Part shown: piece after piece, positions 8,252-46,900 of the stretch
Layout of the letters: the number at the start of each line of letters is the position of its first letter
How positions within the stretch are numbered: the stretch's first letter is position 1
Assembly: GCA_964036275.1 (NCBI GenBank)
Contig: OZ038436.1
Span: forward strand, 17,821,904-17,885,903
Origin: Litoditis marina
Taxonomy: Eukaryota > Nematoda > Chromadorea > Rhabditida > Rhabditidae
Length of the DNA: 64,000 nt
Reading direction: 5' to 3'
Position numbers and translations under genes: made by a program
Notes under the pieces: model-generated
Told to the model about the DNA's origin: nothing
What the model saw: only the letters and a program-made list of their open reading frames with translations
Databases searched by the model: none

Positions 8252-9521
8252 TTATTGATAAGGTCACTTTGCCTTGTAGATGAGATCAATTATTCGTACA
8301 TGTTCCAACCTATTTAAACAAAACCTAGTTTTTCTGACTAACTGAAACACGAGGAATTCAAATAAGTTGGTTTTGCTACCATTACTTCACGTTGGGCAAA
8401 GTTGGTTTTATTGAGAAGGTCACTTTGCCTTGTAGATGAGATCAATTCTTCGAACATGTTCCAACCTATTCAAACAAAACCTGGTTTTTCTGACTAACTG
8501 AAACACGAGGAATTCAAATATGTTGGTTTTGCTACCATTACTTCACGTTGGGCAAAGTTGGTTTTATTGAGAAGGTCACTTTGCCTTGTAGATGAGATCA
8601 ATTATTCGAGCATGTTCCAACCTATTCGAACAAAACCTAGTTTTTCTGACTGACTGAAACCCGAGAAACTCAAATATGTTGGTTTCGCTACCATTACTTC
8701 ACGTTGGGCAGAGTTGGTATTATTGAGAAGGTCACTTTGCCTTGTAGATGAGATCAGTTATTCGTACATGTTCCAACCTATTCAGACAAAACCTAGTTTT
8801 TCTGACTAACTGAAACACGAGGAATTCAAATATGTTGGTTTCGTCACCATTACTTCACGTTGGGCAAAGTTGGTTTTATTGAGAAGGTCACTTTGCCTTG
8901 TAGATGAGATCAATTATTCGTACATGTTCCAACCTATTCAGACAAAACCTAGTTTTTCTATTTAACTGAAACCCGAGGAATTCAAATATGTTGGTTTTGC
9001 TACCATTACTTCACGTTGGGCAAAGTTGGTTTTATTGAGAATGTCACTCTGCCTCGTAGATGAGATCAATTATTCGAACATGTTCCAACCTATTCAAACG
9101 AAACCTAGTTTTTCTATTTAACTGAAACCCGAGGAATTCAAATATGTTGGTTTCGCTACCATTACTTCACGTTGGGCAGAGTTGGTATTATTGAGAAGGT
9201 CACTTTGCCTTGTAGATGAGATCAGTTATTCGTACATGTTCCAACCTATTCAGACAAAACCTAGTTTTTCTGACTAACTGAAACACGAGGAATTCAAATA
9301 TGTTGGTTTCGTCACCATTACTTCACGTTGGGCAAAGTTGGTTTTATTGAGAAGGTCACTTTGCCTTGTAGATGAGATCAATTATTCGAACATGTTCCAA
9401 CCTATTCAAACAAAACCTAGTTTTTATGACTAACTGAAATACGAGGAAATCAAATATGTTGGTTTCACTACCATTACTTTACGTTGGGCAAAGTTGGTTT
9501 TATTGAGAAGGTCACTTTGCC
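8252..9521 (+). repeat. 156-bp satellite, left block (about 8 copies)
   Basis: Tandem monomers repeat every 156 bp; GATGAGATC recurs at 8279 and 8435 and onward. Each monomer contains AAGGTCACTTTGCC, the region around GAACATGTTCC and TTCACGTTGGGC. It is the reverse complement of the monomer that fills 43906-64000. The block abuts the 22-bp minisatellite on the left and is interrupted on the right by a reverse-transcriptase fragment at 9522. The same satellite/RT junction appears at 43905, so that junction is older than the arm duplication. Confidence 0.96.
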
Positions 9522-10414
9522 GATCGTGTTTCTCATGCAAAGCTGTTACATCGGTTAGAAAATCTAGGTTTTCACTGTTCCATTGTCAAGTGGATCGCAT
9601 CTTTCATAAATGAGAGAACGTTCAAGTGACAATCGGAAAAGCAAAGTCTAAGGTTCACCGAATAAGTAGTGGAGTTCCTCGAGGCGGTGTACTTTTCCCG
9701 TTCCTATTTAGCATTTATACCCGTGAAGTACCCGATTTGCTCTCGGTTGGTGCAGTCAGTTGTAAAGTGTTCGCGGACGATACCAAAATCTATCAGAGCT
9801 TTTCACCCGATCGAACTACATATCACCTTCAGACTGCCATTCATGAAATGTATCAGTGGTCACACGACTGGCAATTACCGTTATCAGTGGAGAAAACAAA
9901 AGTGCTGCACTTAGATGAACATAATCCGAGAAGAAACTATAAAGTGTTTGGAACCGATATAGAAAAGACCAGCACTATGCGAGATCTAGGATATATTGTG
10001 AATGAATCACTCAATTTCACTGACCATTGTAAAAAGATATGTAGAGTTGCTAAGAGAAGAACCTTCAATATTTTCGAAACACTGAAGGTCAAGAAACAAG
10101 AGGTTATTGTCAAGCTGTACAAGACTTATGTACGCCTGTTGTAGAGAGCGGTTGTGCCGTATTTAACTCGGATAGAGGTTCTGTCAAGTCACTTGAATCT
10201 TCGAAAAGATTTCACTAGGAAGTTGTTTATGAGAAAAGGTGGATATACTTATTGTAGGGTACCCTCATCTGAAATACGTAATAGAGTCCTAGGACTGAAA
10301 TCTCTCCTCAGTCGCAGAGATGATTTCGATCTACTCATGGTACATAAAATCGTTATCGGTCAAATAAGGCTGAAATCCTCCGACTTTTTTAGTTTTTTCC
10401 CGATCAAAAACTAG
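9522..10414 (+). pseudogene. CR1/jockey-like reverse transcriptase fragment
   Basis: This is part of a non-LTR retrotransposon ORF2. The reading starts at 9522 with DRVSHAKLLHRL, a conserved segment before the palm. A one-base loss near 9626 shifts frame, and the reading resumes with SSGVPRGGVLFP, corresponding to the GVPQGSVLxP motif. FADDTK follows at 9770-9787, the form of the YxDD catalytic motif with both aspartates present. A TAG at 10142-10144 interrupts the frame, after which the same frame continues to 10414 with FTRKLFMRKGG, typical of the C-terminal part of CR1-type ORF2. The endonuclease domain and N-terminal palm are missing; the left end is cut off against satellite. The right-arm copy has the same frameshift and stop, so the element was already dead when the arms duplicated. 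No activity is expected. Confidence 0.88.
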
Positions 10415-11084
10415 AGGAACAACTTTGAAATTGAGTTTTCCCATACCGAAATCAGTATTGCGTCAACAACTTTTCTCTGTGCGAGCAGGATCGAAATATT
10501 TGAAACTATCCAAAAAGGAGAGTTTGCCATTTTCCGTTGCCAGTTTCAAACGTTTTATATCATAACAATTTGACGTTTGCGTTATACTACTGTGTTACTT
10601 CTACTATATTTAACTGTTGTTCCATCCTGTGATTTTTGTCCCCAATTCTTAACGTACGTGTACAATATTATCTCCACAGTTTGATTTCTCATCTTTCTCA
10701 TCATGTTGAACTTGAGAGCTCAATTTGAACAGTGGAAATTAGGAAGTCTCGCGAGCCAAAACGTCGGTGTTTAAACTTTTCAGAGTTCGCATCTTGTAGT
10801 TTTTACTTGTACTGAACTCCCAAGTCATGAATTTCAAACTTAAGATGCAAAAGTATTGAAAGCCACGAACCAGGTTTTCAGTGCGGTTTTTCCAGGTGCC
10901 GTGAAGCAGTACCCGTTCAACAAGTTTTTTTCCTGAAATATCTTTTTTGGCTTACGTGTATCGTGATGAGGCTCATTCAGTTTTGAAGTTCTCGGTGGAA
11001 GCGGCTGAAGGTTAGTCTTGATGTATTTCTTATCGTACTGGCTGCAGCTAATCACAAAGTTTGACTTTCTTCGCTCAATTTTCA
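10415..11084. other. Non-coding arm sequence after the RT fragment
   Basis: I see no supported gene here. A minus-strand open frame at 10840-11085 is broken in the right arm by an extra stretch of about 20 bp near 42450, which argues against coding. The start may be the 3' untranslated part of the RT element; no clear terminal repeat was found. Confidence 0.6.
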
Positions 11085-11535
11085 ACTTAATTATTACTCA
11101 TGGATTCATGAGATTTGTGAAGCTAAGATTTGATGTTTCCTCTCTGTATAGAATTTCGGGAAAAGTAAAGTATCGCCCCCCCCCCCATCCACTATAGTTG
11201 CCCCCTCCCCCCTAGCACTTCAACCGCCCACCCAAACCTAAATCTAGAAATCTAGGAGAGAGGGGGGGGGGTCAAAATTCAACTTCGACATTTACTATTT
11301 ACTCCCCGCCCCCCTTGGTCGGCGGCGGTTAGAACTTTAATGGTAGGGGGGGGGGGGGGGGGGGTCAAACTTGAACGAGAGTTTACTCAATTACTCAAAC
11401 GCAATACAAGTTCAGAAAGGGGGAGGGGGAGGGTAGAAAGTCAATGTTCAATTTTTAACTAATCTATTACTTATGGATTCATGAGATTCGTGAAGCTAAG
11501 ATTAGTTTTTTCCTCTCTGTATAGAATTTCCCCTC
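11085..11535. repeat. C/G-tract unit flanked by 75-bp direct repeats (one unit)
   Basis: Two direct repeats of about 75 bp, containing GGATTCATGAGATT and CCTCTCTGTATAGAATTTC, lie at about 11085-11157 and 11453-11530. Between them are long C and G runs, including 19 consecutive G at 11346-11364. The right arm has the same unit twice in tandem, with three flanking repeats. The G runs could form quadruplexes and are likely slippage-prone in sequencing. Confidence 0.9.
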
Positions 11536-11588
11536 CGGAAATCAGAACACGCGTTCATGAGACCAACGATCTATCATTATTGCAGACG

Positions 11589-11886
11589 ATGGATATGGAT
11601 CCCACTGAAATATTGGCCTGTATCAGAGCTGCTCGCCGTTTCTGCGATACAGTTCGTTCCGTTTCCGAAATTTGAAAATATTTCTGTTTTTAGGACGAAA
11701 ATCTGTTTTGTTTACTCAGTATTTGAACACATCTTACCGAAAACTAAAAAAAAAACTAGAAATTCGTAATGGAAGTTACACACCAGAAAATTTTATGTTT
11801 TCAGATCGAACAAATGGTCAGGAGATCACAAAATGGACTGCCGGTAACTTCCAGCCCGTCTAGCGAAGTGTCACCAGTCTCTCAAG
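11589..11886 (+). other. Exons 1 and 2 of the predicted gene
   Basis: Exon 1 (11589-11660) starts at the first ATG after TTGCAG and encodes 24 residues. Exon 2 (11805-11886) follows ATGTTTTCAG, opens with IEQMVRRSQNG, is rich in Ser/Pro, and ends phase 1 at a GTATTT donor. In the right arm exon 2 differs by TCT to AAT (Ser to Asn) and stays open. Confidence 0.5.
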
Positions 11887-14800
11887 GTATTTAGTCTTTT
11901 CCATTCCTACTGAGACTCCTACAGTGAGATTTTCCAACTTCTAAGCCGTTTGTCTCCCTTACTTTTGATCGGGAAAGTTGAGGATTTTCGTACCTCATGC
12001 TCATTTTCAGGTGGAGTGAATGTACAAGAGAATTTTCTATGAACTACATTTTTAGGTTCACTACAGCCTTCGGAATATTTGTAAGGATACTGTAGGAGTA
12101 TCTGTAGGAATGATGTGAACCATACGTACCCATAATTATTTTGTATCGAAGAATCGTCTTATATTTTTCGGAAGTCAAGTTTTATGTTTCAGAGGAAGTT
12201 CACTTAGAAAACGACTCATTCGGGGGCTCTACTGATAGTGACAGTATGGAAAACGAGGTATTTTTGGTTCACGGAAAAATGCATGGAACCGATTTTCTTA
12301 CTGGCATTCCGTCTTGCTCTGTATATCTTGAATGTTTGAGACCCAAAGCACCTTTGATAGCACAGAAACAATATCAAGTGTTAACTCAGTTGAGCGGGCG
12401 TTCAGGCGACACCCCGAGTTAACATCAAGCTGTGGTTCACAGGCTTTGTTTGCTTAGAACTAGCATATAACTTCCGCAGTAAATTGGAACTTGTGGTTTT
12501 GTGGTACGCGTACCCAGCTGGAAAAGTGCACGCATTACATAGATTTCCATCTAGAAGTCCCTCAATCTTTGTACTAATGAGATTTTGCCTATTCCAAACA
12601 GATGACGTGAATGAAAAAAAGTATTATTTGTTGTGAACTTGAAGTGCACAACCACCTCTTATTATCTTCCTTTGTTCTCGTATTCTTTGTCTTTCAAATT
12701 TGGTAGAGACTGCTATTCCCGCGCAAATTTCTCCGTTCTAAGTGCGAAGAGCACGAGTTCATCCAGAATTTCGTATTGTTATAACTCAAATTCACTTCAA
12801 ACGATCACTTGTTTTTCACAGATTGGAAACACATCGGAGGAGAACGCATCGATATTGAGTCAGCGCGACTCGTCTTCAACTTCGTATGAAACCACGTCTA
12901 TCGAAGAACAGCAAGGTGTGAACTTTATTTTTAGTTGGAGAGGGGGGCATTCAGAATTTGACGAGTATCGGTTAAAGTACGGATGAATAGAATTGTACTC
13001 ACCCCGAAGTTGGTTATTTAAAACCGAATTTGGTCAATTTATATGTTAGCAGACTTTGCAACTACGTGAAACTCTTTGGCAGGTCATTGGCAGCGTTATA
13101 ATAATAATAATTCATTATCCATGTAGAATGACATCAACAACACTTAAATCAAAATTACGTACGTGATGAATGGATTTTAACAAAAAAAAATACATGAAAA
13201 ACCTATTCTTAAAATGGAACGATTGATTATGAGCACCTAGGTCGTATTATTGTAGTGGGAAATGTGGCGTTAAACATGGTAACGGAAACCGTAAACATCA
13301 AAGTACGACTGAGATATGGCTTCAGCAATGGTTGGGTCAGTTGAACACACAGAGCGGAAATATTCATACCTATCTCTAATAGAAACACCATTCTCATACA
13401 TCTCATTTAAAGCAACCACAGTATCCGGAATTTCCCGATTAAACACAAAGTCAGCTGGGACAATGAAACCGGCAGGTAGTTTGTAGCCACCAGGGAAAAC
13501 AATTTCAGACTGAGAGGGTACAGATGAATCAATTGTAGAGGAAGAAGGCACGGGCAAATCAGCAGGAGCAACCAAGTTAGGAGTTTCAACCGGAACGAAT
13601 TCAACAGGTTTTACGGTTGGAGATAACAAAGCAAATGACTCGGACAATTCAGGAAGTGGAGACACATCAATAATTGGAGAAACGGGAACAATATCTCTAG
13701 GTTGTTCAAATACCTCCATTTCGGTTTGTAGGTTGGCAGCAGCGGGAATGGGAATTGTAGTTTGGTCGGTGACCTCAGCTCGGGCGGCGTCTCGTTTCGA
13801 TTGTCTGGCGAGGAATCCGGCCTTTCGCTGTTCCGGGGTTCCGAACTTCCGCACATGAAAAGTTGACATAGAATCTTCGGATTTCATAGCAGTAGAAAGA
13901 TCAATTAGACGAGGAAACGGAATACCATCTTTGACCGAAACTTTGAGTGGGCGAGGTAAACCATCTTGACGAGGTTTACCCAAACGGTGTAGAATAGAGA
14001 TATTAGATGGAGAAACGGACACCAAATTGAAAATTGCATTCACCTTTTTCTTTGTTGAAGAATCCTCTGGTAGGCCATAAATAGTGAGACATCGACGATC
14101 ATGGAAACGGTGGAGTTCAGATTGAATAATGGTGGGCAGAGATTGGGTCAGACTGTCGAGTTTTTAGTTGAGTGTTTTTATTTCACTCAAAATGGTGGAA
14201 AAATGGGTTCGAGATGGTACCATTTTTGGACGAGGTGATGGCATATTAATCAATCGAGAGAGGTCACCTCACACGACCGAGACAAGGGGTGGAATGACCG
14301 AGACAAGGGGTGAAGTTAGAGACAAGGGGTGAAGTTAGATATCAGAAGCGGAACGCGTTGGAAGGCATTAAAACTACGTGAAACTCTTTGGCATGACATT
14401 GACACGCGTTGATACCAACGAAACACGTTAGCATGCCTTGCAACTGCGTGAAAATCTTTGGCGGGTCTTTGGCATGTGTTATCATCAGCAAAGCAAAGCG
14501 TTGGCAGGAATTACAACTACGTGAAACTTTTTGGCAGGTCATTGGCACGCGTTATTTTTAACAATCCACGTTGGCATGCCTACAACAAACATGATTTTTT
14601 TTTGTAAGCTATTGCGTCAATTTCTACAAAATACCTTGGCAGGCCTTACAACTACGTGAAACTTTTCGATTTGCCATTGGCACGCATCAAAATTTACCAT
14701 ACTAAACGCAGTATACGCGTGTTTGGTATCATTTTGTTTGAAATTTTTATAGTAGTCTATAAAATTTACAACTGCTAGACACCGTACAATTTGAAGCACC

Positions 14801-17800
14801 CCAATGCAGACTCCTACAGTGAGATTTTCCAACTTCTAAGCCGTTTGTCTCCCTTACTTTTGATCGGGAAAGTTGAGGATTTTCGTACCTCATGCTCATT
14901 TTCAGGTGGAGTGAATGTACAAGAGAATTTTCTATGAACTACATTTTCAGGTTCACTACAGCCTTCGGAATATTTGTAAGGATACTGTAGGAGTATCTGT
15001 AGGAATGATGTGAACCCTACGTACCCATAATTATTTTGTATCGAAAAATCGTCTTATATTTTTCGGAAGTCAAGTTTTATGTTTCAGAGGAAGTTCACTT
15101 AGAAAACGACTCATTCGGGGGCTCTACTGATAGTGACAGTATGGAAAACGAGGTATTTTTGGTTCACGGAAAAAATGCATGGAACCGATTTTCTTACTGG
15201 TATTCCGTCTTGCTCTGTATATCTGGAATGTTTGAAACCCAAAGCACCTTTGATAGCACAGAAACAATATGAAGTGTTAACTCAGTTGAGCGGGCGTTCA
15301 GGCGACACCCCGAGTTAACATCAAGCTGTGGTTCACAGGCTTTGTTTGCTTAGAACTAGCATATAACTTCCGCAGTAAATTGGAACTTGTGGTTTTGTGG
15401 TACGCGTACCCAGCTGGAAAAGTGCACGCATTACATAGATTTCCATCTAGAAATCCCTCAATCTTTGTACTAATGAGATTTTGCCTATTCCAAACAAATG
15501 ACGTGAATGAAAAAAAAGTATTATTTGTTGTGAACTTGTAGTGCACAACTACCTCTTATTATCTTCCTTTGTTCTCGTATTCTTTGTCTTTCAAATTTGG
15601 TAGAGACTGCTATTCCCGCGCAAATTTCTCCGTTCTAAGTGAAGAGCACGAGTTCATCCAGAATTTTGTATTGTTATAACTCAAATTCACTTCAAACGAT
15701 CACTTGTTTTTCACAGATTGGAAACACATCGGAGGAGAACGCATCGATATTGAGTCAGCGCGACTCGTCTTCAACTTCGTATGAAACCACGTCTATCGAA
15801 GAACAGCAAGGTGTGAACTTTATTTTTAGTTGGAGAGGGGGGCATTCAGAATTTGACGAGTATCGGTTAAAGTACGGATGAATAGAATTGTACTCACCCC
15901 GAAGTTGGTTATTTAAAACCGAATTTGGTCAATTTATATGTTAGCAGACTTTGCAACTACGTGAAACTCTTTGGCAGGTCATTGGCAGCGTTATCAGAAG
16001 CGGAACGCGTTGGAAGGCCTTAAAACTACGTGAAACTCTTTGGCATGACATTGACACGCGTTGATACCAACGAAACACGTTAGCATGCCTTGCAACTGTT
16101 TATATTGCCGTCCTATTCCAACATGTTCCATTTTCACTACAATAGTTTAGATGCGAGTCAACTGAAATGCTAAAAAGCTCCCCATGACCTGAAGATGGAA
16201 GAGTTATGCTTCCATCCCTTTGGGGTTTTCAGTTTATTCCTATTTCACGGAAGATTATTATTATGTGCTATTACTTAGTGGAATAAATATTATTATTTCA
16301 ACTGCGTGAAAATCTTTGGCGGGTCTTTGGCATGTGTTATCATCAGCAAAGCGAAGCGTTGGCAGGCCTTACAACTACGTGAAACTTTTTGGCAGGTCAT
16401 TGGCACGCGTTATTTTTAACAATCCACGTTGGCATGCCTACAACAAACATGATTTTTTTTTGTAAGCTATTGCGTCAATTTCTACAAAATACCTTGGCAG
16501 GCCTTACAACTACGTGAAACTTTTCGATTTGCCATTGGCACGCATCAAAATTTACCATACTAAACGCAGTATACGCGTGTTTGGTATCATTTTGTTTGAA
16601 ATTTTTATAGTAGTCTATAAAGTTTACAACTGCTAGACGCCGTACAATTTGAAGCACCCCAATGCATTTCTCATACTTGAGTTACCCCATATGTGGAGCA
16701 TATTCAATTCTCAACACTATATAACCGAGATACACCCGTTTTAACGGAACGTGAAACTCATAGTACGTTGAAAGGCCTCACAAAAAACGTCAAACTTTTT
16801 AGCAGTAAGTTAGCACGTGTTAAACTCAACGAAATACGTGGGCAAGCCTTACAAAAACGTGAAACTGTTCATCAGTAAGTTAACACGTGTTAAATTCAAC
16901 AAAATACGTGGGCAGGCCTCACGAGAAAGTGAAAAGCTTTGACAGTAAGTTGGCACGCGTTAATTTCAACATGACACGTTCCAGATCTTACAACTACGTA
17001 AAATTCGTTGGCAAGCCACTCGCACGCGTTAAAACAAATTATGTTGGCAGGCTTTGCACTCACGTGAAGCTCTTCGGCATGCTGTTGGCACACATCAAAT
17101 GTTTACTATAAGGAACGCAATATAGTATTTGCTATCATTTGTCATGAAATTTTCATATAATCTATAAGATTTGCATCTGCTAGACGCCGCAGGCGTCTAG
17201 CCCTCTTTCTAAAACAATACGGACTTTTTGGGAGGTTGGGGGACAGAACGTCACTAGAGTACAAAACACTCGTTGCAACTGGTTTGGAGAATTAGCAATC
17301 AAAACCGTTTTTCTCAGTTGAACAATAGCTTTTTTGAGAGTTTATCAAGGTAACGTTTTTTCGGACACTGCTATTTTTAATTCACAGACTCTCTTTTTCT
17401 TTTTCGGAAGTAAATTTTTTATGTTTCAGTGAAACTACACTCAGAAAACGACTCATTCGAGGACTCTACTGATAGTAACAGTATGGAAAACGAGGTATTT
17501 TTAGTTTACGGAAGAACGCGTGAAACCAATTTTTTTCCTGGTATTCCGTCTGCTTTTTATTGAATGTTTGAGACCCTAAGCCCCTTTGATAGTCCAAAAC
17601 AACACTATTCAATACTGAAAGATGAAACTAATAAAAAACTGCATGGAACCATTTGTTGTTTGTTCTCATTTCTCACTCGTAAATGTTAAGAATAGTCATA
17701 TTTCTCACTCGTAAATGTTAAGAATAGTCATTTTCTCTATCGTTCTGAAAAACATAGTTTGCTTATAAGCCAGCATGTCAGTTCTCAACTTTCGTGAAAG

Positions 17801-18880
17801 AAATGTTTTTCTATCCAATATAGAGTATCAGAATTTTCTAACCAATACAGAGTGTGTTTTTTTCTCAAGGAATTTGATGGTATCCTAGCGGAGTTCCACA
17901 CTCCACCCGTACTTGACGATAAGTTGCGGTCACTTCTAGAAAAATCCAGTCACGGCACACTGAAGGTAACACAACAACCATGTTCTTAAGCTTCTAAAAA
18001 ACGAGCGTCTTCAAGGAAATGAGTCATCCCTTCATTTTTTAATTGCTCTACTCAAGCTTTCCATTCACCAGATTACTGTCTGTAAAGTATTAATCACAAG
18101 TATCATTGCGGCTTCTCTTATCGGGTGTCTCCCAGAAAAATCAGTGTTCAAAACGCCAATTTCATTCAGAATCAAACGAGGGCCGGACACTGTCGTTATT
18201 TATTACGGTCTATTGGTCCAGCGTACAAACGGAATGCGAGGGCCACTGAAAACGTTTTAGATGATTTAATTTCCAAAAGAGTGGATCTTCCGACTGCACA
18301 AAAGGTAAAAGTAAAATTCAGACATCCATTGAGTTTTGAGCCGTTACTGGTCTTCTGTCTTGTGTGAGCTCAAATCAACTCTCCCAAAGACTTGATTAGT
18401 TATTCACAACGGCTGAAACTCGTTCGGAAGGTGCTTTCGTTGAAACTACCGCAGTACCGTCAAATCGCGTTTGGTCCGGCGGTTTACCGCAAATGAGTAT
18501 TGTTGTACTTTCTTTTTGTAACATTGTTCTGGGTTATGACAGGTTTTCTTTCAATTCAGACTTGTTTCCAATTCGAAAAGAAGTGTGGTCGAGTTAGGTG
18601 TGTATTCCTATGATCAGAGGTTCGAACTGTGTACTGCAATTCTTTTTTATTTTGCCTAATTCTGTTGCAACCGAAAACGTTCGAGTTTTCAGCGTATTAA
18701 TGAAGTGACCGTGCCTCCCAGTTCACTTCTTCGACAGTATAATTTTCGAAAAACGGATGTGGATAATATAATGGGAGAAATTGGCGATGTCCCCAACGTA
18801 GAAAAAATTATGAGGTAGTTGATTTTGGGAACCAAATCGTTCTATTGTCTCCGACCGTATTTAGGGATGGAGTTGAATGA
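11589..18880 (+). CDS. Predicted multi-exon gene of unknown function (left-arm copy)
   Basis: I do not recognise the protein. By hand the exons are 11589-11660, 11805-11886, 12193-12257, 12822-12915, 15088-15152, 15717-15810, 17430-17494, 17870-17965, 18101-18304, 18693-18814 and 18865-18880. Their phases agree at every junction and total 975 nt, giving 324 residues plus TGA at 18878. Donors are mostly GAG or AAG before GTATTT, GTAACA or GTAAAA; acceptors are mostly TTTTCAG or TTTCAG. The last intron is 50 nt. Weak points are the exon 1 donor (TCC before GTTTCC) and the acceptors before 17870 and 18101 (CAAG). The product has a short N-terminal part (MDMDPTEILACIRAARRF), a Ser/Glu/Asp-rich middle and a basic C-terminal part. 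Open frame and splice sites survive in both arms, which favours a real gene; expression is unproven. Confidence 0.6.
12193..12915 (+). other. Exon pair b-c, first copy (53-codon acidic module)
   Basis: Exon b (12193-12257, 65 nt) opens with EVHLEND and ends MENE at GAG before GTATTT. Exon c (12822-12915, 94 nt) opens with IGNTSEEN and ends IEEQQ. Together they are 159 nt, enter in phase 1 and leave in phase 1, so the pair can be repeated without breaking the frame. The module is rich in Ser, Thr, Glu and Asp. Confidence 0.6.
13100..14342 (-). mobile_element. ORF1-only non-LTR retroelement (half-LINE)
   Basis: This 1243-bp insertion is absent from copy 2 of the tandem duplication and from the right arm, which defines both ends. 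On the minus strand it starts with three copies of a motif containing CACCCCTTGTCTC, then a start codon at 14244, an ORF1-type protein, a 3' region of about 170 bp, and a 3' tail of ATT repeats at 13100-13112. The flanks share only TAT, so any target-site duplication is short. No reverse transcriptase is present, so it would have been mobilised in trans. It lies antisense within a predicted intron. Confidence 0.85.
13270..14244 (-). pseudogene. Retrotransposon ORF1-like protein with one internal stop
   Basis: Reading from the ATG at 14244, about 325 codons are open except for a TAA at 14164-14166; the uninterrupted part runs from 14163 to 13270. The sequence HDRRCLTIYGLPEDS followed by LHRLGKPRQDGLPRPLKV matches the general pattern of LINE ORF1 RNA-binding proteins (a hydrophobic strand, then RLGK..RPLKV). 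A Pro/Ser-rich linker follows. The last 60 or so residues include CSTDPTIAEAISQ and YGFRYHV, matching the end of the protein at 21130-21564 (CDPHLAPIISD, YGFRFHI). Likely role: RNA binding in a retrotransposition particle, inferred from family resemblance. The early stop may postdate insertion. Confidence 0.75.
14343..14700. repeat. Degenerate ~70-bp tandem repeat, copy 1
   Basis: The motif ACTACGTGAAACT or ACTGCGTGAAAAT recurs at about 14375, 14445, 14517 and 14653, spaced about 70 bp apart, alternating with CACGCGTT and TTGGCAGGCC. The array begins near 13060 and is interrupted by the half-LINE at 13100-14342. Short open frames here are by-products of the repeat. Confidence 0.8.
15088..15810 (+). 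other. Exon pair b-c, second copy
   Basis: Exon b' is 15088-15152 and exon c' is 15717-15810, with the same splice sites and phases as the first pair. Its incoming phase 1 matches the outgoing phase 1 of the first exon c, so both modules can be spliced in series. Confidence 0.6.
15945..16560. repeat. Degenerate ~70-bp tandem repeat, copy 2
   Basis: Same family as 14343-14700, with ACGTGAAACT and CACGCGTT motifs, here split by the 206-bp insertion. The right-arm counterpart at about 39600-40010 is continuous. Confidence 0.8.
16099..16304 (+). mobile_element. 206-bp SINE-like or truncated-LINE insertion with hairpin
   Basis: The insertion is flanked by a CAACTG duplication (16093-16098 and 16299-16304) and is missing from copy 1 and from the right arm. 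It ends with AATAAATATTATTATTT, an ATT-type tail like those of the two ORF1 elements. A nested hairpin is predicted: GATGGAAG (16194-16201) pairs with CTTCCATC (16209-16216), and outside it CCCCA (16180-16184) pairs with TGGGG (16221-16225). A structured 3' end is what a LINE reverse transcriptase would recognise. No pol III A or B box was seen, so a 5'-truncated LINE tail is as likely as a SINE. Confidence 0.75.
16745..17110. repeat. Degenerate ~70-bp tandem repeat, third block
   Basis: Related units carry AGTAAGTTAGCACGTGTTAAA and ACAAAAACGTGAAACT. An inverted extra copy of the 16800-17060 part lies in the central spacer at about 25545-25810. Confidence 0.75.
17180..17200. repeat. Perfect 9-bp inverted repeat with 3-nt loop
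   Basis: CTAGACGCC and GGCGTCTAG flank GCA. The same palindrome occurs at 27752-27772 and 38959-38979, and half of it occurs near 14773 and 16630 as GCTAGACGCCG or a variant. It probably marks the end of a dispersed repeat family. Confidence 0.85.
17430..18304 (+). other. Exons b'', d and e of the predicted gene
   Basis: Exon b'' (17430-17494) is a diverged copy of exon b in the same phase, with Gly-Gly replaced by acidic residues and one Asp to Asn change. Exon d (17870-17965) encodes 32 residues starting EFDGILAEFHTPP. Exon e (18101-18304) encodes 68 residues including SPRKISVQNANFIQNQ and is Arg/Lys-rich. An alternative acceptor (CCCAG, exon from 18136) would break the frame after exon d. 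A further open stretch at 18371-18496 (starts QINSPKDL, stops after VYRK) could not be joined in phase and is left out of the model. Confidence 0.5.
18693..18880 (+). other. Last two exons and stop of the predicted gene
   Basis: Exon g (18693-18814) follows GAGTTTTCAG and encodes RINEVTVPPSSLLRQYNF and onward to EKIM. It ends in phase 2 at GAG before GTAGTT. A 50-nt intron ends in TTTAG, and exon h (18865-18880) finishes with DGVE and TGA. The short intron and clean sites make this the best-supported splice in the gene. Confidence 0.65.
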
Positions 18881-18952
18881 GCATAGTTGGGTAAACAAAG
18901 TAAAGATAAATGGAAAAAAGTCAACACACAAATGATTGAATGAAGTGAAAGT

Positions 18953-18958
18953 AATAAA
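18953..18958 (+). terminator. Candidate poly(A) signal AATAAA
   Basis: A canonical AATAAA lies 73 bp after the predicted stop at 18880. Its mirror is at 37187-37192 in the right arm. Confidence 0.55.
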
Positions 18959-18998
18959 CACTATCTATGAAGTCGATTACTGACTGAGTTTCAATGTG

Positions 18999-35680: not shown

Positions 35681-35689
35681 TTTCCGCTC

Positions 35690-36237: not shown

Positions 36238-36543
36238 TCACACAGAATCTTCCTCTTCTTCCGAAACAAATTTTTCGGCCGCCTTATAGAAATGAGATAA
36301 CCACTTTTCAACTGAATACAATCGATCTTTTCTCAGGCCCATCGCTCTGAATTTTGTTGGTGAGAATACAGTGTAAAAACATCTTGCAATCGTTTTTCTA
36401 ATGATTTGAGGTACCCTGCGAATTCCAGCAAAATGTAATGAGATGCTCTTTATATTACCGAGTTGCACTTTCATCCTATTATCAATCCCTATGAAAGACA
36501 ATCTCTCCGTTTGAGCCAAGGTGATTATGTTTCTTTTAACCAT
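36238..36543 (-). CDS. Hypothetical 101-residue basic ORF, right arm
   Basis: Translation is identical to 19602-19907. It diverges from the ORF at 36572 with a 28-bp gap. Function unknown; see the left-arm entry. Confidence 0.4.
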   Translation of the reverse strand: MVKRNIITLAQTERLSFIGIDNRMKVQLGNIKSISLHFAGIRRVPQIIRKTIARCFYTVFSPTKFRAMGLRKDRLYSVEKWLSHFYKAAEKFVSEEEEDSV

Positions 36544-36571
36544 CGATAGCAGCCAGTTACAGTAGATTTAA

Positions 36572-36949
36572 ATGGGCGGAGTCGATTGTGGTGGAAAGTT
36601 TCCAACAGGAGCCTTTTCGAAATTTTTGCATAAGCTGGCTATCGAACTCAGCTGCGATAGGTTGCGCGGCGCCCACAAGCAGCGGGCCATTATAAACAAG
36701 ATGACCGAAACTAAAAACAGTGATATCAAACCATGTCTTCTCGCCGTTTTTCAACGTTCATTTTATCGCACAAAATGTTCTATAAATTACTCCCCGATTA
36801 TGTGGGGACCTTTTAAAAACAATAAATTTGCAAACATCTTGATTTGCAGTGTATATACTGGCGAATTGCCAGATCAATCGTCTGTAATAGGGAGAGCTCA
36901 TATCAGCATGGCTGATTACTATCGATGGTTGAAACGATCTAAACTATGA
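36572..36949 (+). CDS. Hypothetical 125-residue ORF, right arm
   Basis: Translation is identical to 19196-19573. No recognisable domain. Confidence 0.35.
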   Translation: MGGVDCGGKFPTGAFSKFLHKLAIELSCDRLRGAHKQRAIINKMTETKNSDIKPCLLAVFQRSFYRTKCSINYSPIMWGPFKNNKFANILICSVYTGELPDQSSVIGRAHISMADYYRWLKRSKL

Positions 36950-37186
36950 TAGCAAGTTTGCTTTGTGAAGTATTGAAATATTTGTAATCTAAGTCTGAAA
37001 ATTCCGAAGTTATTCAGCGATAGTATTTGAGATTTGTTTTACCAATTGGTTCCTTGTCCTGGGTCAATGGCTTTTTCGCTCATCTTCTTATGAGTTCTTG
37101 ACCCCTGACCCTGAGACATCGTAAAGGTGCAGAGGCCGAAACGATGCACATTGAAACTCAGTCAGTAATCGACTTCATAGATAGTG

Positions 37187-37192
37187 TTTATT
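37187..37192 (-). terminator. Candidate poly(A) signal, right-arm gene
   Basis: AATAAA on the minus strand, 73 bp after the predicted stop at 37265. Confidence 0.55.
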
Positions 37193-37264
37193 ACTTTCAC
37201 TTCATTCAATCATTTGTGTATTGACTTTTTTCCATTTATCTTTACTTTGTTTACCCAACTATGC

Positions 37265-40200
37265 TCATTCAACTCCATCCCTAAATACGGTCGGAGACAA
37301 TAGAACGATTTGGTTCCCAAAATCAACTACCTCATAATTTTTTCTACGTTGGGGACATCGCCAATTTCTCCCATTATATTATCCACATCCGTTTTTCGAA
37401 AATTATACTGTCGAAGAAGTGAACTGGGAGGCACGGTCACTTCATTAATACGCTGAAAACTCGAACGTTTTCGGTTGCAACAGAATTAGGCAAAATAAAA
37501 AAGAATTGCAGTACACAGTTCGAACCTCTGATCATAGGAATACACACCTAACTCGACCACACTTCTTTTCGAATTGGAAACAAGTCTGAATTGAAAGAAA
37601 ACCTGTCATAACCCAGAACAATGTTACAAAAAGAAAGTACAACAATACTCATTTGCGGTAAACCGCCGGACCAAACGCGATTTGACGGTACTGCGGTAGT
37701 TTCAACGAAAGCACCTTCCGAACGAGTTTCAGCCGTTGTGAATAACTAATCAAGTCTTTGGGAGAGTTGATTTGAGCTCACACAAGACAGAAGACCAGTA
37801 ACGGCTCAAAACTCAATGGATGTCTGAATTTTACTTTTACCTTTTGTGCAGTCGGAAGATCCACTCTTTTGGAAATTAAATCATCTAAAACGTTTTCAGT
37901 GGCCCTCGCATTCCGTTTGTACGCTGGACCAATAGACCGTAATAAATAACGACAGTGTCCGGCCCTCGTTTGATTCTGAATGAAATTGGCGTTTTGAACA
38001 CTGATTTTTCTGGGAGACACCCGATAAGAGAAGCCGCAATGATACTTGTGATTAATACTTTACAGACAGTAATCTGGTGAATGGAAAGCTTGAGTAGAGC
38101 AATTAAAAAATGAAGGGATGACTCATTTCCTTGAAGACGCTCGTTTTTTAGAAGCTTAAGAACATGGTTGTTGTGTTACCTTCAGTGTGCCGTGACTGGA
38201 TTTTTCTAGAAGTGACCGCAACTTATCGTCAAGTACGGGTGGAGTGTGGAACTCCGCTAGGATACCATCAAATTCCTTGAGAAAAAAACACACTCTGTAT
38301 TGGTTAGAAAATTCTGATACTCTATATTGGATAGAAAAACATTTCTTTCACGAAAGTTGAGAACTGACATGCTGGCTTATAAGCAAACTATGTTTTTCAG
38401 AACGATAGAGAAAATGACTATTCTTAACATTTACGAGTGAGAAATATGACTATTCTTAACATTTACGAGTGAGAAATGAGAACAAACAACAAATGGTTCC
38501 ATGCAGTTTTTTATTAGTTTCATCTTTCAGTATTGAATAGTGTTGTTTTGGACTATCAAAGGGGCTTAGGGTCTCAAACATTCAATAAAAAGCAGACGGA
38601 ATACCAGGAAAAAAATTGGTTTCACGCGTTCTTCCGTAAACTAAAAATACCTCGTTTTCCATACTGTTACTATCAGTAGAGTCCTCGAATGAGTCGTTTT
38701 CTGAGTGTAGTTTCACTGAAACATAAAAAATTTACTTCCGAAAAAGATAAGACGATGCTTCGATACAAAGTCTGTGAATTAAAAATAGCAGTGTCCGAAA
38801 AAACGTTACCTTGATAAACTCTCAAAAAAGCTATTGTTCAACTGAGAAAAACGGTTTTGATTGCTAATTCTCCAAACCAGTTGCAACGAGTGTTTTGTAC
38901 TCTAGTGACGTTCTGTCCCCCAACCTCCCAAAAAGTCCGTATTGTTTTAGAAAGAGGGCTAGACGCCTGCGGCGTCTAGCAGATGCAAATCTTATAGATT
39001 ATATGAAAATTTCATGACAAATGATAGCAAATACTATATTGCGTTCCTTATAGTAAACATTTGATGTGTGCCAACAGCATGCCGAAGAGCTTCACGTGAG
39101 TGCAAAGCCTGCCAACATAATTTGTTTTAACGCGTGCGAGTGGCTTGCCAACGAATTTTACGTAGTTGTAAGATCTGGAACGTGTCATGTTGAAATTAAC
39201 GCGTGCCAACTTACTGTCAAAGCTTTTCACTTTCTCGTGAGGCCTGCCCACGTATTTTGTTGAATTTAACACGTGTTAACTTACTGATGAACAGTTTCAC
39301 GTTTTTGTAAGGCTTGCCCACGTATTTCGTTGAGTTTAACACGTGCTAACTTACTGCTAAAAAGTTTGACGTTTTTTGTGAGGCCTTTCAACGTACTATG
39401 AGTTTCACGTTCCGTTAAAACGGGTGTATCTCGGTTATATAGTGTTGAGAATTGAATATGCTCCACATATGGGGTAACTCAAGTATGAGAAATGCATTGG
39501 GGTGCTTCAAATTGTACGGCGTCTAGCAGTTGTAAACTTTATAGACTACTATAAAAATTTCAAACAAAATGATACCAAACACGCGTATACTGCGTTTAGT
39601 ATGGTAAATTTTGATGCGTGCCAATGGCAAATCGAAAAGTTTCACGTAGTTGTAAGGCCTGCCAAGGTATTTTGTAGAAATTGACGCAATAGCTTACAAA
39701 AAAAAATCATGTTTGTTGTAGGCATGCCAACGTGGATTGTTAAAAATAACGCGTGCCAATGACCTGCCAAAAAGTTTCACGTAGTTGTAAGGCCTGCCAA
39801 CGCTTCGCTTTGCTGATGATAACACATGCCAAAGACCCGCCAAAGATTTTCACGCAGTTGCAAGGCATGCTAACGTGTTTCGTTGGTATCAACGCGTGTC
39901 AATGTCATGCCAAAGAGTTTCACGTAGTTTTAAGGCCTTCCAACGCGTTCCGCTTCTGATAACGCTGCCAATGACCTGCCAAAGAGTTTCACGTAGTTGC
40001 AAAGTCTGCTAACATATAAATTGACCAAATTCGGTTTTAAATAACCAACTTCGGGGTGAGTACAATTCTATTCATCCGTACTTTAACCGATACTCGTCAA
40101 ATTCTGAATGCCCCCCTCTCCAACTAAAAATAAAGTTCACACCTTGCAGTTCTTCGATAGACGTGGTTTCATACGAAGTTGAAGACGAGTCGCGCTGACT

Positions 40201-41468
40201 CAATATCGATGCGTTCTCCTCCGATGTGTTTCCAATCTGTGAAAAACAAGTGATCGTTTGAAGTGAATTTGAGTTATAACAATACAAAATTCTGGATGAA
40301 CTCGTGCTCTTCACTTAGAACGGAGAAATTTGCGCGGGAATAGCAGTCTCTACCAAATTTGAAAGACAAAGAATACGAGAACAAAGGAAGATAATAAGAG
40401 GTAGTTGTGCACTACAAGTTCACAACAAATAATACTTTTTTTTCATTCACGTCATCTGTTTGGAATAGGCAAAATCTCATTAGTACAAAGATTGAGGGAT
40501 TTCTAGATGGAAATCTATGTAATGCGTACACTTTTCCAGCTGGGTACGCGTACCACAAAACCACAAGTTCCAATTTACTGCGGAAGTTATATGCTAGTTC
40601 TAAGCAAACAAAGCCTGTGAACCACAGCTTGATGTTAACTCGGGGTGTCGCCTGAACGCCCGCTCAACTGAGTTAACACTTGATATTGTTTCTGTGCTAT
40701 CAAAGGTGCTTTGGGTCTCAAACATTCAAGATATACAGAGCAAGACGGAATGCCAGTAAGAAAATCGGTTCCATGCATTTTTCCGTGAACCAAAAATACC
40801 TCGTTTTCCATACTGTCACTATCAGTAGAGCCCCCGAATGAGTCGTTTTCTAAGTGAACTTCCTCTGAAACATAAAACTTGACTTCCGAAAAATATAAGA
40901 CGATTCTTCGATACAAAATAATTATGGGTACGTATGGTTCACATCATTCCTACAGATACTCCTACAGTATCCTTACAAATATTCCGAAGGCTGTAGTGAA
41001 CCTAAAAATGTAGTTCATAGAAAATTCTCTTGTACATTCACTCCACCTGAAAATGAGCATGAGGTACGAAAATCCTCAACTTTCCCGATCAAAAGTAAGG
41101 GAGACAAACGGCTTAGAAGTTGGAAAATCTCACTGTAGGAGTCTCAGTAGGAATGGAAAAGACTAAATACCTTGAGAGACTGGTGACACTTCGCTATTCG
41201 GGCTGGAAGTTACCGGCAGTCCATTTTGTGATCTCCTGACCATTTGTTCGATCTGAAAACATAAAATTTTCTGGTGTGTAACTTCCATTACGAATTTCTA
41301 GTTTTTTTTTTAGTTTTCGGTAAGATGTGTTCAAATACTGAGTAAACAAAACAGATTTTCGTCCTAAAAACAGAAATATTTTCAAATTTCGGAAACGGAA
41401 CGAACTGTATCGCAGAAACGGCGAGCAGCTCTGATACAGGCCAATATTTCAGTGGGATCCATATCCAT
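37265..41468 (-). CDS. Predicted multi-exon gene of unknown function (right-arm copy)
   Basis: Exons in transcript order are 41468-41397, 41252-41171, 40864-40800, 40236-40143, 38715-38651, 38275-38180, 38044-37841, 37452-37331 and 37280-37265. They total 816 nt, giving 271 residues plus stop, with phases agreeing at each junction. It is the left-arm gene minus one 53-codon module, so it probably keeps the ancestral arrangement of one b-c pair plus b''. Seen substitutions are Asn for Ser in exon 2 and Leu for Gln near the end of exon c. None makes a stop. The weak splice sites are the same as on the left. Function unknown. Confidence 0.58.
38959..38979. repeat. CTAGACGCC inverted repeat, right arm
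   Basis: Mirror of 17180-17200, perfect 9-bp arms. Confidence 0.85.
39060..40015. repeat. Degenerate ~70-bp tandem repeats, right arm
   Basis: GTTTCACGTAGTTGTAAGG and AACGCGTGCCAA motifs recur about every 70 bp, without the two insertions seen in the left arm. Overlapping open frames are by-products. Confidence 0.8.
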
Positions 41469-41514
41469 CGTCTGCAATAATGATAGATCGTTGGTCTCAT
41501 GAACGCGTGTTCTG

Positions 41515-42325
41515 ATTTCCGGAGGGGAAATTCTATACAGAGAGGAAAAAACTAATCTTAGCTTCACGAATCTCATGAATCCATAAGTAATAGATTAGTT
41601 AAAAATTGAACATTGACTTTCTACCCTCCCCCTCCCCCTTTCTGAACTTGTATTGCGTTTGAGTAATTGAGTAAACTCTCGTTCAAGTTTGACCCCCCCC
41701 CCCCCTACCATTAAAGTTCTAACCGCCGCCGACCAAGGGGGGCGGGGAGTAAATAGTAAATGTCGAAGTTGAATTTTGACCCCCCCCCTCTCTCCTAGAT
41801 TTCTAGATTTAGGTTTGGGTGGGCGGTTGAAGTGCTAGGGGGGAGGGGGCAACTATAGTGGAGGGGGGGGGCGATACTTTACTTTTCCCGAAATTCTATA
41901 CAGAGAGGAAAAAACTAATCTTAGCTTCACGAATCTCATGAATCCATAAGTAATAGATTAGTTAAAAATTGAACATTGACTTTCTACCCTCCCCCTCCCC
42001 CTTTCTGAACTTGTATTGCGTTTGAGTAATTGAGTAAACTCTCGTTCAAGTTTGACCCCCCCCCCCTACCATTAAAGTTCTAACCGCCGCCGACCAAGGG
42101 GGGCGGGGAGTAAATAGTAAATGTCGAAGTTGAATTTTGACCCCCCCCCTCTCTCCTAGATTTCTAGATTTAGGTTTGGGTGGGCGGTTGAAGTGCTAGG
42201 GGGGAGGGGGCAACTATAGTGGAGGGGGGGGGGGGGGGCGATACTTTACTTTTCCCGAAATTCTATACAGAGAGGAAACATCAAATCTTAGCTTCACAAA
42301 TCTCATGAATCCATGAGTAATAATT
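41515..42325. repeat. C/G-tract unit, two tandem copies
   Basis: The 370-bp unit bounded by GAAATTCTATACAGAGAGG is present twice (boundaries near 41530, 41892 and 42260), against once in the left arm. The C/G run lengths differ between the two copies. Confidence 0.9.
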
Positions 42326-43003
42326 AAGTTGAAAATTGAGCGAAGAAAGTCAAACTTTGTGATTAGCTGCAGCCAGTACGATAAGAAATACATCAAGACT
42401 AACCTTCAGCCGCTTCCACCGAGAACTTCAAAACTGAATGAGCCTCATCATCTAAATTTCTCTTTTTCACGATACACGTAAGCCAAAAAAGATATTTCAG
42501 GAAAAAAACTTGTTGAACGGGTACTGCTTCACGGCACCTGGAAAAACCGCACTGAAAACCTGGTTCATGGCTTTCAATACTTTTGCATCTTAAGTTTGAA
42601 ATTCATGACTTGGGAGTTCAGTACAAGTAAAAACTACAAGATGCGAACTCTGAAAAGTTTAAACACCGACGTTTTGGCTCGCGAGACTTCCTAATTTCCA
42701 CTGTTCAAATTGAGCTCTCAAGTTCAACATGATGAGAAAGATGAGAAATCAAACTGTGGAGATAATATTGTACACGTACGTTAAGAATTGGGGACAAAAA
42801 TCACAGGATGGAACAACAGTTAAATATAGTAAAGTAACACAGTAGTATAACGCAAACGTCAAATTGTTATGATATAAAACGTTTGAAACTAGCAACTGAA
42901 AATGGCAAACTCTCCTTTTTGGATAGTTTCAAATATTTCGATCCTGCTCGCACAGAGAAAAATTGTTGACGCAATACTGATTTCGGTATGGGAAAACTCA
43001 ATT
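42326..43003. other. Non-coding arm sequence
   Basis: Mirror of 10415-11084, with an extra stretch of about 20 bp near 42450 (ATCTAAATTTCTCTTTTTC). No gene is supported. Confidence 0.6.
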
Positions 43004-43905
43004 TCAAAGTTGTTCCTCTAGTTTTTGATCGGGAAAAAAACTAAAAAAGTCGGAGGATTTCAGCCTTATTTGACCGATAACGATTTTATGTACCATGAGT
43101 AGATCGAAATTATCTCTGCGACTGAGGAGAGATTTCAGTCCTAGGACTCTATTACGTACTTCAGATGAGGGTACACTACAATAAGTATATCCACCTTTTC
43201 TCATAAACAACTTCCTAGTGAAATCTTTTCGAATATTCAAGTGACTTGACAGAACCTCTATCCGAGTTAAATACGGTACAACCGCTCTCTACAACAGGCG
43301 TACATAAGTCTTGTACAGCTTGACAATAACCTCTTGTTTCTTGACCTTCAGTGTTTCGAAAATATTGAAGGTTCTTCTCTTAGCAACTCTACATATCTTT
43401 TTACAATGGTCAGTGAAATTGAGTGATTCATTCACAATATATCCTAGATCTCGCATAGTGCTGGTCTTTTCTATATCGGTTCCAAAAACTTTTCTTCTCG
43501 GATTATGTTCATCTAAGTGCAGCACTTTTGTTTTCTCCACTGATAACGGTAATTGCCAGTCGTGTGACCACTGATACATTTCATGAATGGCAGTCTGAAG
43601 GTGATATGTAGTTCGATCGGGTGAAAAGCTCTGATAGATTTTGGTATCGTCCGCGAACACTTTACAACTGACTGCACCAACCGAGAGCAAATCGGGTACT
43701 TCACGGGTATAAATGCTAAATAGGACCGGGAAAAGTACACCGCCTCGAGGAACTCCACTACTTATTCGGTGAACCTTAGACTTTGCTTTTCCGACTGTCA
43801 CTTGAACGTTCTCTCAATTATGAAAGATGCGATCCACTTGACAATGGAACAGCGAAAACCTAGATTTTCTAACCGATGTAACAGCTTTGCATGAGAAACA
43901 CGATC
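43004..43905 (-). pseudogene. CR1/jockey-like reverse transcriptase fragment, right arm
   Basis: Mirror of 9522-10414. FADD and GVPRGG motifs are present, and the same one-base frameshift near 43801 and the same stop near 43285 are shared with the left arm. Private differences are loss of two residues after HNPRR, Cys-Ser for Cys-Arg in the tail, and one extra T that changes the last residues to FFPDQKLEEQL. Confidence 0.87.
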
Positions 43906-46900
43906 GGCAAAGTGACCTTCTCAATAAAACCAACTTTGCCCAACGTAAAGTAATGGTAGCGAAACCAACATATTTGATTTCCTCGTATTTCAGTTAGTCA
44001 TAAAAACTAGGTTTTGTTTGAATAGGTTGGAACATGTTCGAATAATTGATCTCATCTACAAGGCAAAGTGACCTTCTCAATAAAACCAACTTTGCCCAAC
44101 GTGAAGGAATGGTGACGAAACCAACATATTTGAATTCCTCGTGTTTCAGTTAGTCAGAAAAACTAGGTTTTGTCTGAATAGGTTGGAACATGTACGAATA
44201 ATTGATCTCATCTACAAGGCAAAGTGACCTTCTCAATAAAACCAACTCTGCCCAACGTGAAGTAATGGTAGCGAAACCAACATATTTGAATTCCTCCTGT
44301 TTCAGTTAGTCAGAAAAACTAGGTTTTGTCTGAATAGGTTGGAACATGTACGAATAACTGATCTCATCTACAAGGCAAAGTGACCTTCTCAATAAAACCA
44401 ACTCTGCCCAACGTGAAGTAATGGTAGCGAAACCAACATATTTGAATTCCTCGTGTTTCAGTTAATCAGAAAAACTAGGTTTCGTTTGAATAGGTTGGAA
44501 CATGTTCGAATAATTGATCTCATCTACAAGGCAAAGTGACCTTCTCAATAAAACCAACTCTGCCCAACGTGAAGTAATGGTAGCGAAACCAACATATTTG
44601 AATTCCTCGTGTTTCAGTTAATCAGAAAAACTAGGTTTTGTCTGAATAGGTTGGAACATGTACGAATAACTGATCTCATCTACAAGGCAAAGTGACCTTA
44701 TCAATAATATCAACTCTGCCCAACGTGAAGTAATGGTAGCGAAACCAACATATTTGAATTCCTCCTGTTTCAGTTAGTCAGAAAAACTAGGTTTTGTCTG
44801 AATAGGTTGGAACATGTACGAATAACTGATCTCATCTACAAGGCAAAGTGACCTTCTCAATAATACCAACTTTGCCCAACGTGAAGTAATGGTAGCGAAA
44901 CCAACATATTTGAATTCCTCGGGTTTCAGTTAGTCATAAAAACTAGGTTTTGTTTGAATAGGTTGTAACATGTTCGAATAATTGATCTCATCTACAAGGC
45001 AAAGTGACCTTCTCAATAAAACCAACTCTGCCCAACGTGAAGTAATGGTAGCGAAACCAACATATTTGAATTCCTCGTTTTTCAGTTAATCAGAAAAACT
45101 AGGTTTTGTCTGAATAGGTTGGAACATGTACGAATAACTGATCTCATCTACAAGGCAAAGTGACCTTCTCAATAATACCAACTTTGCCCAACGTGAAGTA
45201 ATGGTAGCGAAACCAACATATTTGAATTCCTCGGGTTTCAGTTAGTCATAAAAACTAGGTTTTGTTTGAATAGGTTGTAACATGTTCGAATAATTGATCT
45301 CATCTACAAGGCAAAGTGACCTTCTCAATAAAACCAACTCTGCCCAACGTGAAGTAATGGTAGCGAAACCAACATATTTGAATTCCTCGTTTTTCAGTTA
45401 ATCAGAAAAACTAGGTTTCGTTTGAATAGGTTGGAACATGTTCGAATAATTGATCTCATCTACAAGGCAAAGTGACCTTCTCAATAAAACCAACTCTGCC
45501 CAACGTGAAGTAATGGTAGCGAAACCAACATATTTGAGTTCCTCGGGTTTCAGTCAGTCAGAAAAACTAGGTTTTGTTCGAATAGGTTGGAACATGCTCG
45601 AATAATTTATCTCATCTACAAGGCAAAGTGACCTTCTCAATAAAACCAACTTTGCCCAACGTGAAGTAATGGTAGCGAAACCAACATATTTGAATTCCTC
45701 GTATTTCAGTTAGTCAGAAAAACTAGGTTTTGTCTGAATAGGTTGGAACATGTACGAATAACTGATCTCATCTACAAGGCAAAGTGACCTTCTCAATAAA
45801 ACCAACTCTGCCCAACGTGAAGTAATGGTAGCGAAACCAACATATTTGAATTCCTCGTGTTTCAGTTAATCAGAAAAACTAGGTTTTGTCTGAATAGGTT
45901 GGAACATGTTCGAATAATTGATCTCATCTACAAGGCAAAGTGACCTTCTCAATAAAACCAACTCTGCCCAACGTGAAGTTATGGCAGCAAAACCAACATA
46001 TTTGAATTCCTCGTGTTTCAGTTAATCAGAAAAACTAGGTTTCGTTTGAATAGGTTGGAACATGTTCGAATAATTGATCTCATCTACAAGGCAAAGTGAC
46101 ATTCTCAATAAAACCAACTCTGCCCAACGTGAAGTAATGGTAGCGAAACCAACATATTTGAATTCCCGGGTTTCAGTTAGTCAGAAAAACTAGGTTTTGT
46201 TTTAATAGGTTGTAACATGTTCGAATAATTGATCTCATCTACAAGGCAAAGTGACCTTATCAATAATACCAACTCTGCCCAACGTGAAGTAATGGTAGCG
46301 AAACCAACATATTTGAATTCCCGGGTTTCAGTTAGTCAGAAAAACTAGGTTTTGTTTTAATAGGTTGTAACATGTTCGAATAATTGATCTCATCTACAAG
46401 GCAAAGTGACCTTATCAATAATACCAACTCTGCCCAACGTGAAGTAATGGTAGCGAAACCAACATATTTGAATTCCCGGGTTTCAGTTAGTCAGAAAAAC
46501 TAGGTTTTGTTTTAATAGGTTGTAACATGTTCGAATAATTGATCTCATCTACAAGGCAAAGTGACCTTCTCAATAATACCAACTTTGCCCAACGTGAAGT
46601 TATGGCAGCAAAACCAACATATTTGATTTCCTCGTATTTCAGTTAGTCAGAAAAACTAGGTTTTGTTTAAATAGGTTGGAACATGTACGAATAATTGATC
46701 TCATCTACAAGGCAAAGTGACCTTCTCAATAATACCAACTTTGCCCAACGTGAAGTTATGGCAGCAAAACCAACATATTTGATTTCCTCGTATTTCAGTT
46801 AGTCAGAAAAACTAGGTTTTGTTTAAATAGGTTGGAACATGTACGAATAATTGATCTCATCTACAAGGCAAAGTGACCTTCTCAATAATACCAACTTTGC

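Follow-up and report, generated by a model that had tools for sequence, protein, structure and literature searches.

The 64,000-bp window analysed here, the stretch C2:17821904–17885903 of the nematode Litoditis marina (contig OZ038436.1 of assembly GCA_964036275.1), contains a very large palindrome. This palindrome is a large inverted segmental duplication, with long, near-identical inverted arms that occur at one locus in the stretches searched. We consider it likely that the duplication arose by template-switching repair synthesis and that a Helitron-like element and a dispersed repeat, here termed X, were inserted later; some 14–17 kb were probably copied back in mirror image by a repair event with several template switches. 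The structure was read from the sequence of one assembly alone (261.8 Mb, 522 contigs), in which all genome-wide searches were carried out. C1, C2, C4 and C18 denote contigs, L002–L051 denote fetched loci, and negative coordinates lie left of the window.

Self-comparison of the window, the dot-plot check that a preliminary description of this DNA had suggested, gave a chain of inverted matches between 8251–25476 and 45176–30875. The unique part of the left arm (9522–25476, + strand, 15,955 bp) carries a tandem duplication and a 1.2-kb insertion and is locus-specific in the stretches searched; that of the right arm (30875–43905, − strand, 13,031 bp) is its reverse complement, in agreement with the mirror-image arms of about 16.0 and 13.0 kb described previously. 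The longest exact inverted match within 9522–43906 measures 1,527 bp, compared with 15–22 bp in ten first-order Markov controls. Across six anchored segments, chosen so as to exclude duplicated and gapped stretches, 50 of 12,493 aligned columns (0.40%) are mismatched between the arms; besides these mismatches, the arms are distinguished by the left tandem duplication, the left 1.2-kb insertion and smaller indels. Three arm stretches were searched genome-wide, and no full-length match to them was found elsewhere in the assembly. Positions 18000–18900 gave two matches, both at the locus. Positions 22000–23900 gave two full-length matches, also both at the locus, the other 40 of the 42 listed being short stretches (40 scored of 1,347 candidates). 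All seven matches of 12100–12450, which holds the source of piece C described below, lie at C2:17.834–17.863 Mb, and two of them are the halves of piece C. A 361-bp tandem duplication at 41527–42339 is confined to the right arm.

The centre of the palindrome is a mosaic. After arithmetic subtraction of the two later insertions, the native centre between two copies of a dispersed repeat, E, amounts to 472 bp. On the + strand, the left arm runs to about E position 482 and is followed by 7 bp, piece A, 38 bp and piece C, after which the sequence enters E at about position 544 and continues outward along the right arm. The left-arm copy of E (25065–25540, + strand) is cut at 25540, about position 482 of a full E of about 1.12 kb. 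The adjoining insert (25541–25547, + strand) consists of the 7 bp CTGCCAA and by eye resembles the beginning of piece A, as if copying had been aborted there. Piece A itself (25548–25814, + strand, about 267 bp) is an inverted copy of left-arm 16787–17056 with 97.4% identity, on the same strand as right-arm 39103–39372, and is separated from piece C by a slippage-like insert of 38 bp (25815–25852, + strand) made of two near-copies of a 16-bp unit. Piece C totals about 160 bp: its first part (25853–25918, + strand) is an inverted copy of left-arm 12332–12397 (and 15225–15293), on the same strand as right-arm 40660–40725, and its second part (27773–27870, + strand) is an inverted copy of left-arm 12235–12332, on the same strand as right-arm 40725–40822, with its last 4 bp, CTAT, common with E. 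The inner end of the right-arm E copy (27867–27995, − strand) extends to about position 544 of E, some 62 bp deeper than the left one; E was thus re-entered on the opposite strand about 62 bp from the point of exit. Relative to the left arm, pieces A and C and the entire right arm are all on the opposite strand. The source searches for both pieces used the surrounding arm stretches as queries rather than the pieces themselves; the stretch 16700–17140, within which the source of piece A lies, matched the spacer at 97%, its next hit away from the locus being 83% alike (40 scored of 505 candidates).

The repeat E is intact at both cut points elsewhere. It measures about 1.12 kb in L042 and four other fetched copies, the full-length comparison covering same-strand copies, and these five same-strand copies in the fetched loci read through both position 482 and position 544. 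The possibility that E simply ends at 25540, with two old inverted E copies starting the event, was rejected, as other copies continue to about 1.12 kb. Apart from one, the listed E copies are about 94–95% alike (40 scored of 1,034 first-look candidates). The closest listed relative of the palindrome's E (99%) lies at −58689 to −58210 (L024), beside a 22-bp array, hinting at local exchange.

Because A and C are local inserts from the opposite strand, E is cut at two points and CTAT is shared at the C/E junction, we read the centre as the product of serial template switching. The model of microhomology-mediated break-induced replication (MMBIR) involves repeated template switches and inverted products (PMC2621351), and human inverted duplications show junction microhomology and inserts usually derived from within 1 kb (PMC3907307). 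Pieces A and C are junction inserts copied from nearby templates, as expected for switching of the MMBIR type or of the fork stalling and template switching (FoSTeS) type. A fold-back with a disomic spacer does not describe the locus, in which the native centre is mostly inverted arm copies and the remainder of the spacer is later insertions. The preliminary description had proposed foldback priming or fusion of sister or homologous ends. An origin of the foldback type is still compatible with the centre, but a simple end fusion is disfavoured because it does not predict two arm-derived inserts, an E cut at two points, a common strand and a 4-bp microhomology.

We propose a hypothetical course of events in which (i) a break within E, or the collapse of a fork there, produced a free end near E position 482, either on the left arm or on a sister of identical sequence; (ii) this end would have copied short pieces of the arm from the opposite strand, namely A, the slippage-like insert and C; (iii) the end would next have resumed copying in E, on the other strand and about 62 bp past its exit, and continued outward along the entire arm into a 156-bp satellite; (iv) on the way, copying would have moved out of the second tandem unit of the left arm into the first, leaving one unit in the right arm; (v) the nascent end would probably have used its satellite homology to join a 156-bp array already present on the far side; and (vi) the Helitron-like element would later have entered piece C, and X the right E copy, giving the present 5.4-kb spacer. 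The mosaic centre, the origin and strand of its pieces, both insertions and the mixture of tandem units in the right arm are read directly from the sequence. Within this scheme, we infer the position of the break, the direction of copying, the identity of the copied arm and the capture of the second end by the satellite.

The spacer (5,398 bp, between 25476 and 30875) has the size and position given by the preliminary description, which had treated it as asymmetric. It is not one piece, however, and mirror symmetry reaches 64–67 bp into it, 25474–25540 being the reverse complement of 27929–27995 at 97%. About 4.7 kb of it is made up of two insertions that, judging from their relations to the flanking sequence, are later arrivals of dispersed repeats. 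Repeat X (27994–30877, + strand, 2.9 kb), which has internal 130-bp tandem repeats and a 290-bp inverted repeat at its right end, is inserted in the right-arm E and separates it into 30875–31286 and 27867–27995. Since that E copy continues across the site, X landed in a right arm that already existed. The left end of X is supported by 36 of 39 other scored matches, which start at 27990–27994, the other three starting slightly earlier (2,164 candidates), and other copies, through the mirrored end of their inverted repeat, suggest a right end near 30877. The second insertion (25919–27772, + strand, 1,854 bp) splits piece C: the arm counterpart at 40660–40822 runs uninterrupted, whereas the spacer counterpart is divided into 25853–25918 and 27773–27870. 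A 5′ TC, a 3′ hairpin followed by CTRR, and insertion between A and T without target duplication are Helitron features, and they are the basis for naming this element Helitron-like; its ends (5′ TC, 3′ hairpin and CTAG) and its A/T insertion site conform to them. At seven other loci, its left end is found at 25917–25918 in three and further in in two, and two have no match on the strand tested; L004 shows both ends. Its right end coincides with the stop at 27773 of 29 of 39 other scored matches. The one open reading frame (ORF) of the element that was scanned had no Pfam match, autonomous relatives not being sought. The element is possibly composite, because some copies share only its first 1.15 kb and form head-to-tail arrays; such arrays, with a period of about 1.16 kb, were seen on C1, C4 and C18 (L002, L003 and L008). 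The spacer as the original loop of a fold-back is ruled out by the split E copy inside it.

The left arm is longer because of its tandem duplication, with units L1 (11913–14808) and L2 (14808–16666), and the 1.2-kb insertion (13100–14339) within L1; the right arm holds one unit. Up to 12375, all 8 of the informative sites in this single unit match L1, and 11 of the 13 beyond match L2 (Fisher p = 2 × 10⁻⁴, with the split point picked after the sites had been seen), a count that covers informative sites and leaves out sites unique to the right arm. Piece C has two variants in common with L2, against L1 and the right arm. To judge from these sites, the right arm resembles a left-arm copy in which copying switched from L2 to L1, or else one from which a unit was lost afterwards. 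An ORF within the 1.2-kb insertion (13273–14163, − strand) resembles by eye the first ORF of a long interspersed nuclear element and has no Pfam match. A 91% relative of part of it lies at 88199–88738.

The outer ends of the palindrome lie in satellite. On the left, the 156-bp satellite (8251–9521, + strand) comprises 8.1 copies and stops at a 22-bp satellite array (1–8249, identified with Tandem Repeats Finder), which runs about 21 kb further left to −20873 and lies outside the mirror; on the right, it occupies 43906–64000 (− strand) and continues to 77392, with 215 monomers. The boundary between arm and satellite falls at the identical base in both arms, and among the 215 right monomers the best matches of left monomers 1 and 2 are right monomers 1 and 2 (99.4% and 98.7%). 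The mirror register gives the best mean of all offsets tried (0.956). With the boundary and the first two monomers mirrored, the duplicated unit took in a satellite edge, as the preliminary description had stated; its further claim of symmetry extending into the satellite applies to the junction and these two monomers, but copy-by-copy mirroring is lost beyond them. From there outward, the satellite has either turned over since the duplication or been replaced. The 22-bp satellite extends over about 75 kb (−69999 to 8249) and switches orientation four times (L028, L024, L023, L018, L017, L016, L015 and window 1–8249). A recent mirror duplication of these left arrays was rejected, with inverted exact matches of at most 234 bp and direct ones of up to 3,041 bp over −58152 to 8249. 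Two tandem units of the telomere repeat TTAGGC were not found in the 204 kb examined. The chromosomes of this nematode are presumably holocentric.

Several points weigh against the proposed origin. Microhomology, of which template switching would predict 2–5 bp at each switch, is clear at one of the three switch points (CTAT at C/E), and by eye the others have little or none. Six of the eight left monomers (3–8) do not match best with their mirror copy, which ranks 53, 7, 3, 71, 28 and 17, respectively. The choice of the left arm as the original would depend on the mosaic of L1 and L2, and the ancestral state is judged from one assembly of one individual. In addition, the copies residing in the spacer (A, C compared with L2, and the inner E) show 9 differences from the left arm in 498 positions, indels uncounted, against 50 in 12,493 between the arms (odds ratio 4.6, Fisher p = 4 × 10⁻⁴), which is unexpected for a single event without later conversion.

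Arm-to-arm gene conversion since the duplication, an addition to template switching rather than an exclusive alternative, could explain this discrepancy, and we rate it at slightly less than an even chance. Such homogenisation is known from the palindromes of mammalian sex chromosomes and has been proposed for certain inverted repeats of Caenorhabditis. The arm differences are uneven along the length (37 events in six segments, Monte Carlo p = 1.5 × 10⁻⁴), although their cluster at 23.2–23.8 kb may be a local mutation cluster. At columns 57 and 132 of A, both arms share a derived base, unlike the spacer and the sole outgroup (L051, 83%), and in the alignment of piece C, L1 and the right arm have in common, at C2 column 28, a base that is absent from the spacer, L2 and a diverged paralogue. 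Inverted repeats kept alike are published for Caenorhabditis (PMC1803023). On the other hand, piece A has this single outgroup at 83%, column 166 of A and column 23 of C1 (again in piece C) are not polarisable, and for column 21 of A, a 3-bp gap in A and column 47 of C1 the change lies in the spacer. Three changes are specific to L2, and the inner E has one change on each side, as judged by other E copies. With changes on both sides, a burst of copying errors in the spacer is disfavoured as the whole explanation. The same data would also fit a diverged template haplotype or an origin in two steps. Gene conversion between the arms, as suggested in the preliminary description, is therefore plausible from the divergence and the shared derived bases but not demonstrated. 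A fuller version, a germline inverted duplication in which serial template switching began the copy, the tandem satellite completed it by recombining with another array, and the arms have since been homogenised while the spacer kept ancestral bases, appears to us rather unlikely as a whole.

Somewhat less probable still is the origin in two steps, in which an earlier event pasted A and C beside a broken E, and a plain foldback at the C/E junction (CTAT) subsequently gave rise to the palindrome. Conversion would then be unneeded: such a history explains why A, C and the inner E are 1.8% from the left arm against 0.40% between the arms, and why both arms have derived bases at two sites of A where the spacer keeps the outgroup base. 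It demands, however, that two rearrangements struck the same few hundred bases independently and that each took its material from one and the same strand of one arm. An assembly artefact, either a foldback chimera or two haplotypes falsely joined in inverted orientation, is very improbable. Heterozygosity in many animals covers 0.40%, and the difference between the arms would be compatible with it; yet a foldback read would yield an unspaced, near-perfect palindrome rather than one with a tandem duplication, indels, X, a Helitron-like element and inserts from local templates. Moreover, neither the window nor the surrounding 204 kb contains any N, and 18000–18900 occurs twice in the assembly, both times at the locus. 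We reject the idea that a single giant transposable element accounts for the locus, with the arms as its long terminal inverted repeats. The symmetry about the centre and the dispersed repeats E and X at the inner ends might speak for it, but the three searched arm stretches have no full-length match elsewhere and revealed no dispersed copies with the same ends, and the only Pfam match among ten scanned ORFs is a reverse transcriptase fragment at the outer end.

Template-switching repair synthesis, the origin we favour, can be set beside known systems. Human inverted duplications with adjacent deletion of the fold-back type resemble this locus in their inverted copy, non-mirrored centre, short microhomology at switches, nearby inserts and dispersed repeats at some edges; here, in contrast, satellite flanks the structure on each side, a telomere-bearing terminal deletion was not seen, and the native centre is mostly arm copies rather than a single-copy loop (PMC3907307). 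With MMBIR, the locus has in common several short local pieces before a long tract, the inverted orientation and one 4-bp microhomology, but it represents an old event in one assembly, with microhomology not at every junction (PMC2621351). Rtel1-deficient cells likewise have copied segments, typically inverted, inserted near stalled replication; those are rearrangements of mutant cells with far-off templates, whereas no helicase is tied to the event here (PMC5783719). The long inverted repeats of Caenorhabditis are also from nematodes, with unusually similar arms and suspected conversion, but the examples considered hold paralogous gene pairs and are shared between species, whereas no gene was recognised in the ORFs scanned here (PMC1803023). 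Mammalian X and Y palindromes (PMC8981503, PMC3723533) similarly have large arms that are more than 99% alike around a spacer; in our case, no genes were recognised, and neither a sex-chromosome location nor conversion is established. Regions rich in satellites and helitrons are described for eliminated nematode DNA (PMC13370393). No published account of the locus appeared among the papers listed, which dealt with general models and with Caenorhabditis inverted repeats; this is a weak negative, the search not being species-specific.

The window contains 24 ORFs of at least 100 amino acids, several of them mirror copies; ten were scanned with Pfam, yielding the reverse transcriptase match mentioned above. 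Rfam gave no match at gathering score in the window, and no tRNAs were found. Nothing points to a cellular role for the palindrome, and it is best seen as a repair scar in a satellite-rich region. As a separate observation, Rfam SL1 matches, of which the 50 scored are all below the curated cut-off, lie mostly in arrays of a unit of about 1.37 kb on C1 and C4 (L011, L012). One such unit carries GGTTTAATTACCCAAGTTTGAG, the nematode SL1 leader, near a 5S-like gene recognised as such by eye.

In summary, the locus represents a known type of rearrangement in a good state of preservation, not a new kind of element. Its centre keeps readable traces of repair, namely an exit point, two copied inserts and a re-entry point, and the inserts in the spacer provide a built-in third copy for testing arm homogenisation. 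A vague question of foldback or fusion thereby becomes one that is answerable from the sequence of more individuals. A large asymmetric spacer can consist mostly of later insertions, so that spacer length is a poor guide to mechanism. If the copy was indeed completed through the satellite, satellite islands would be both the boundary and the way out for local palindromes.

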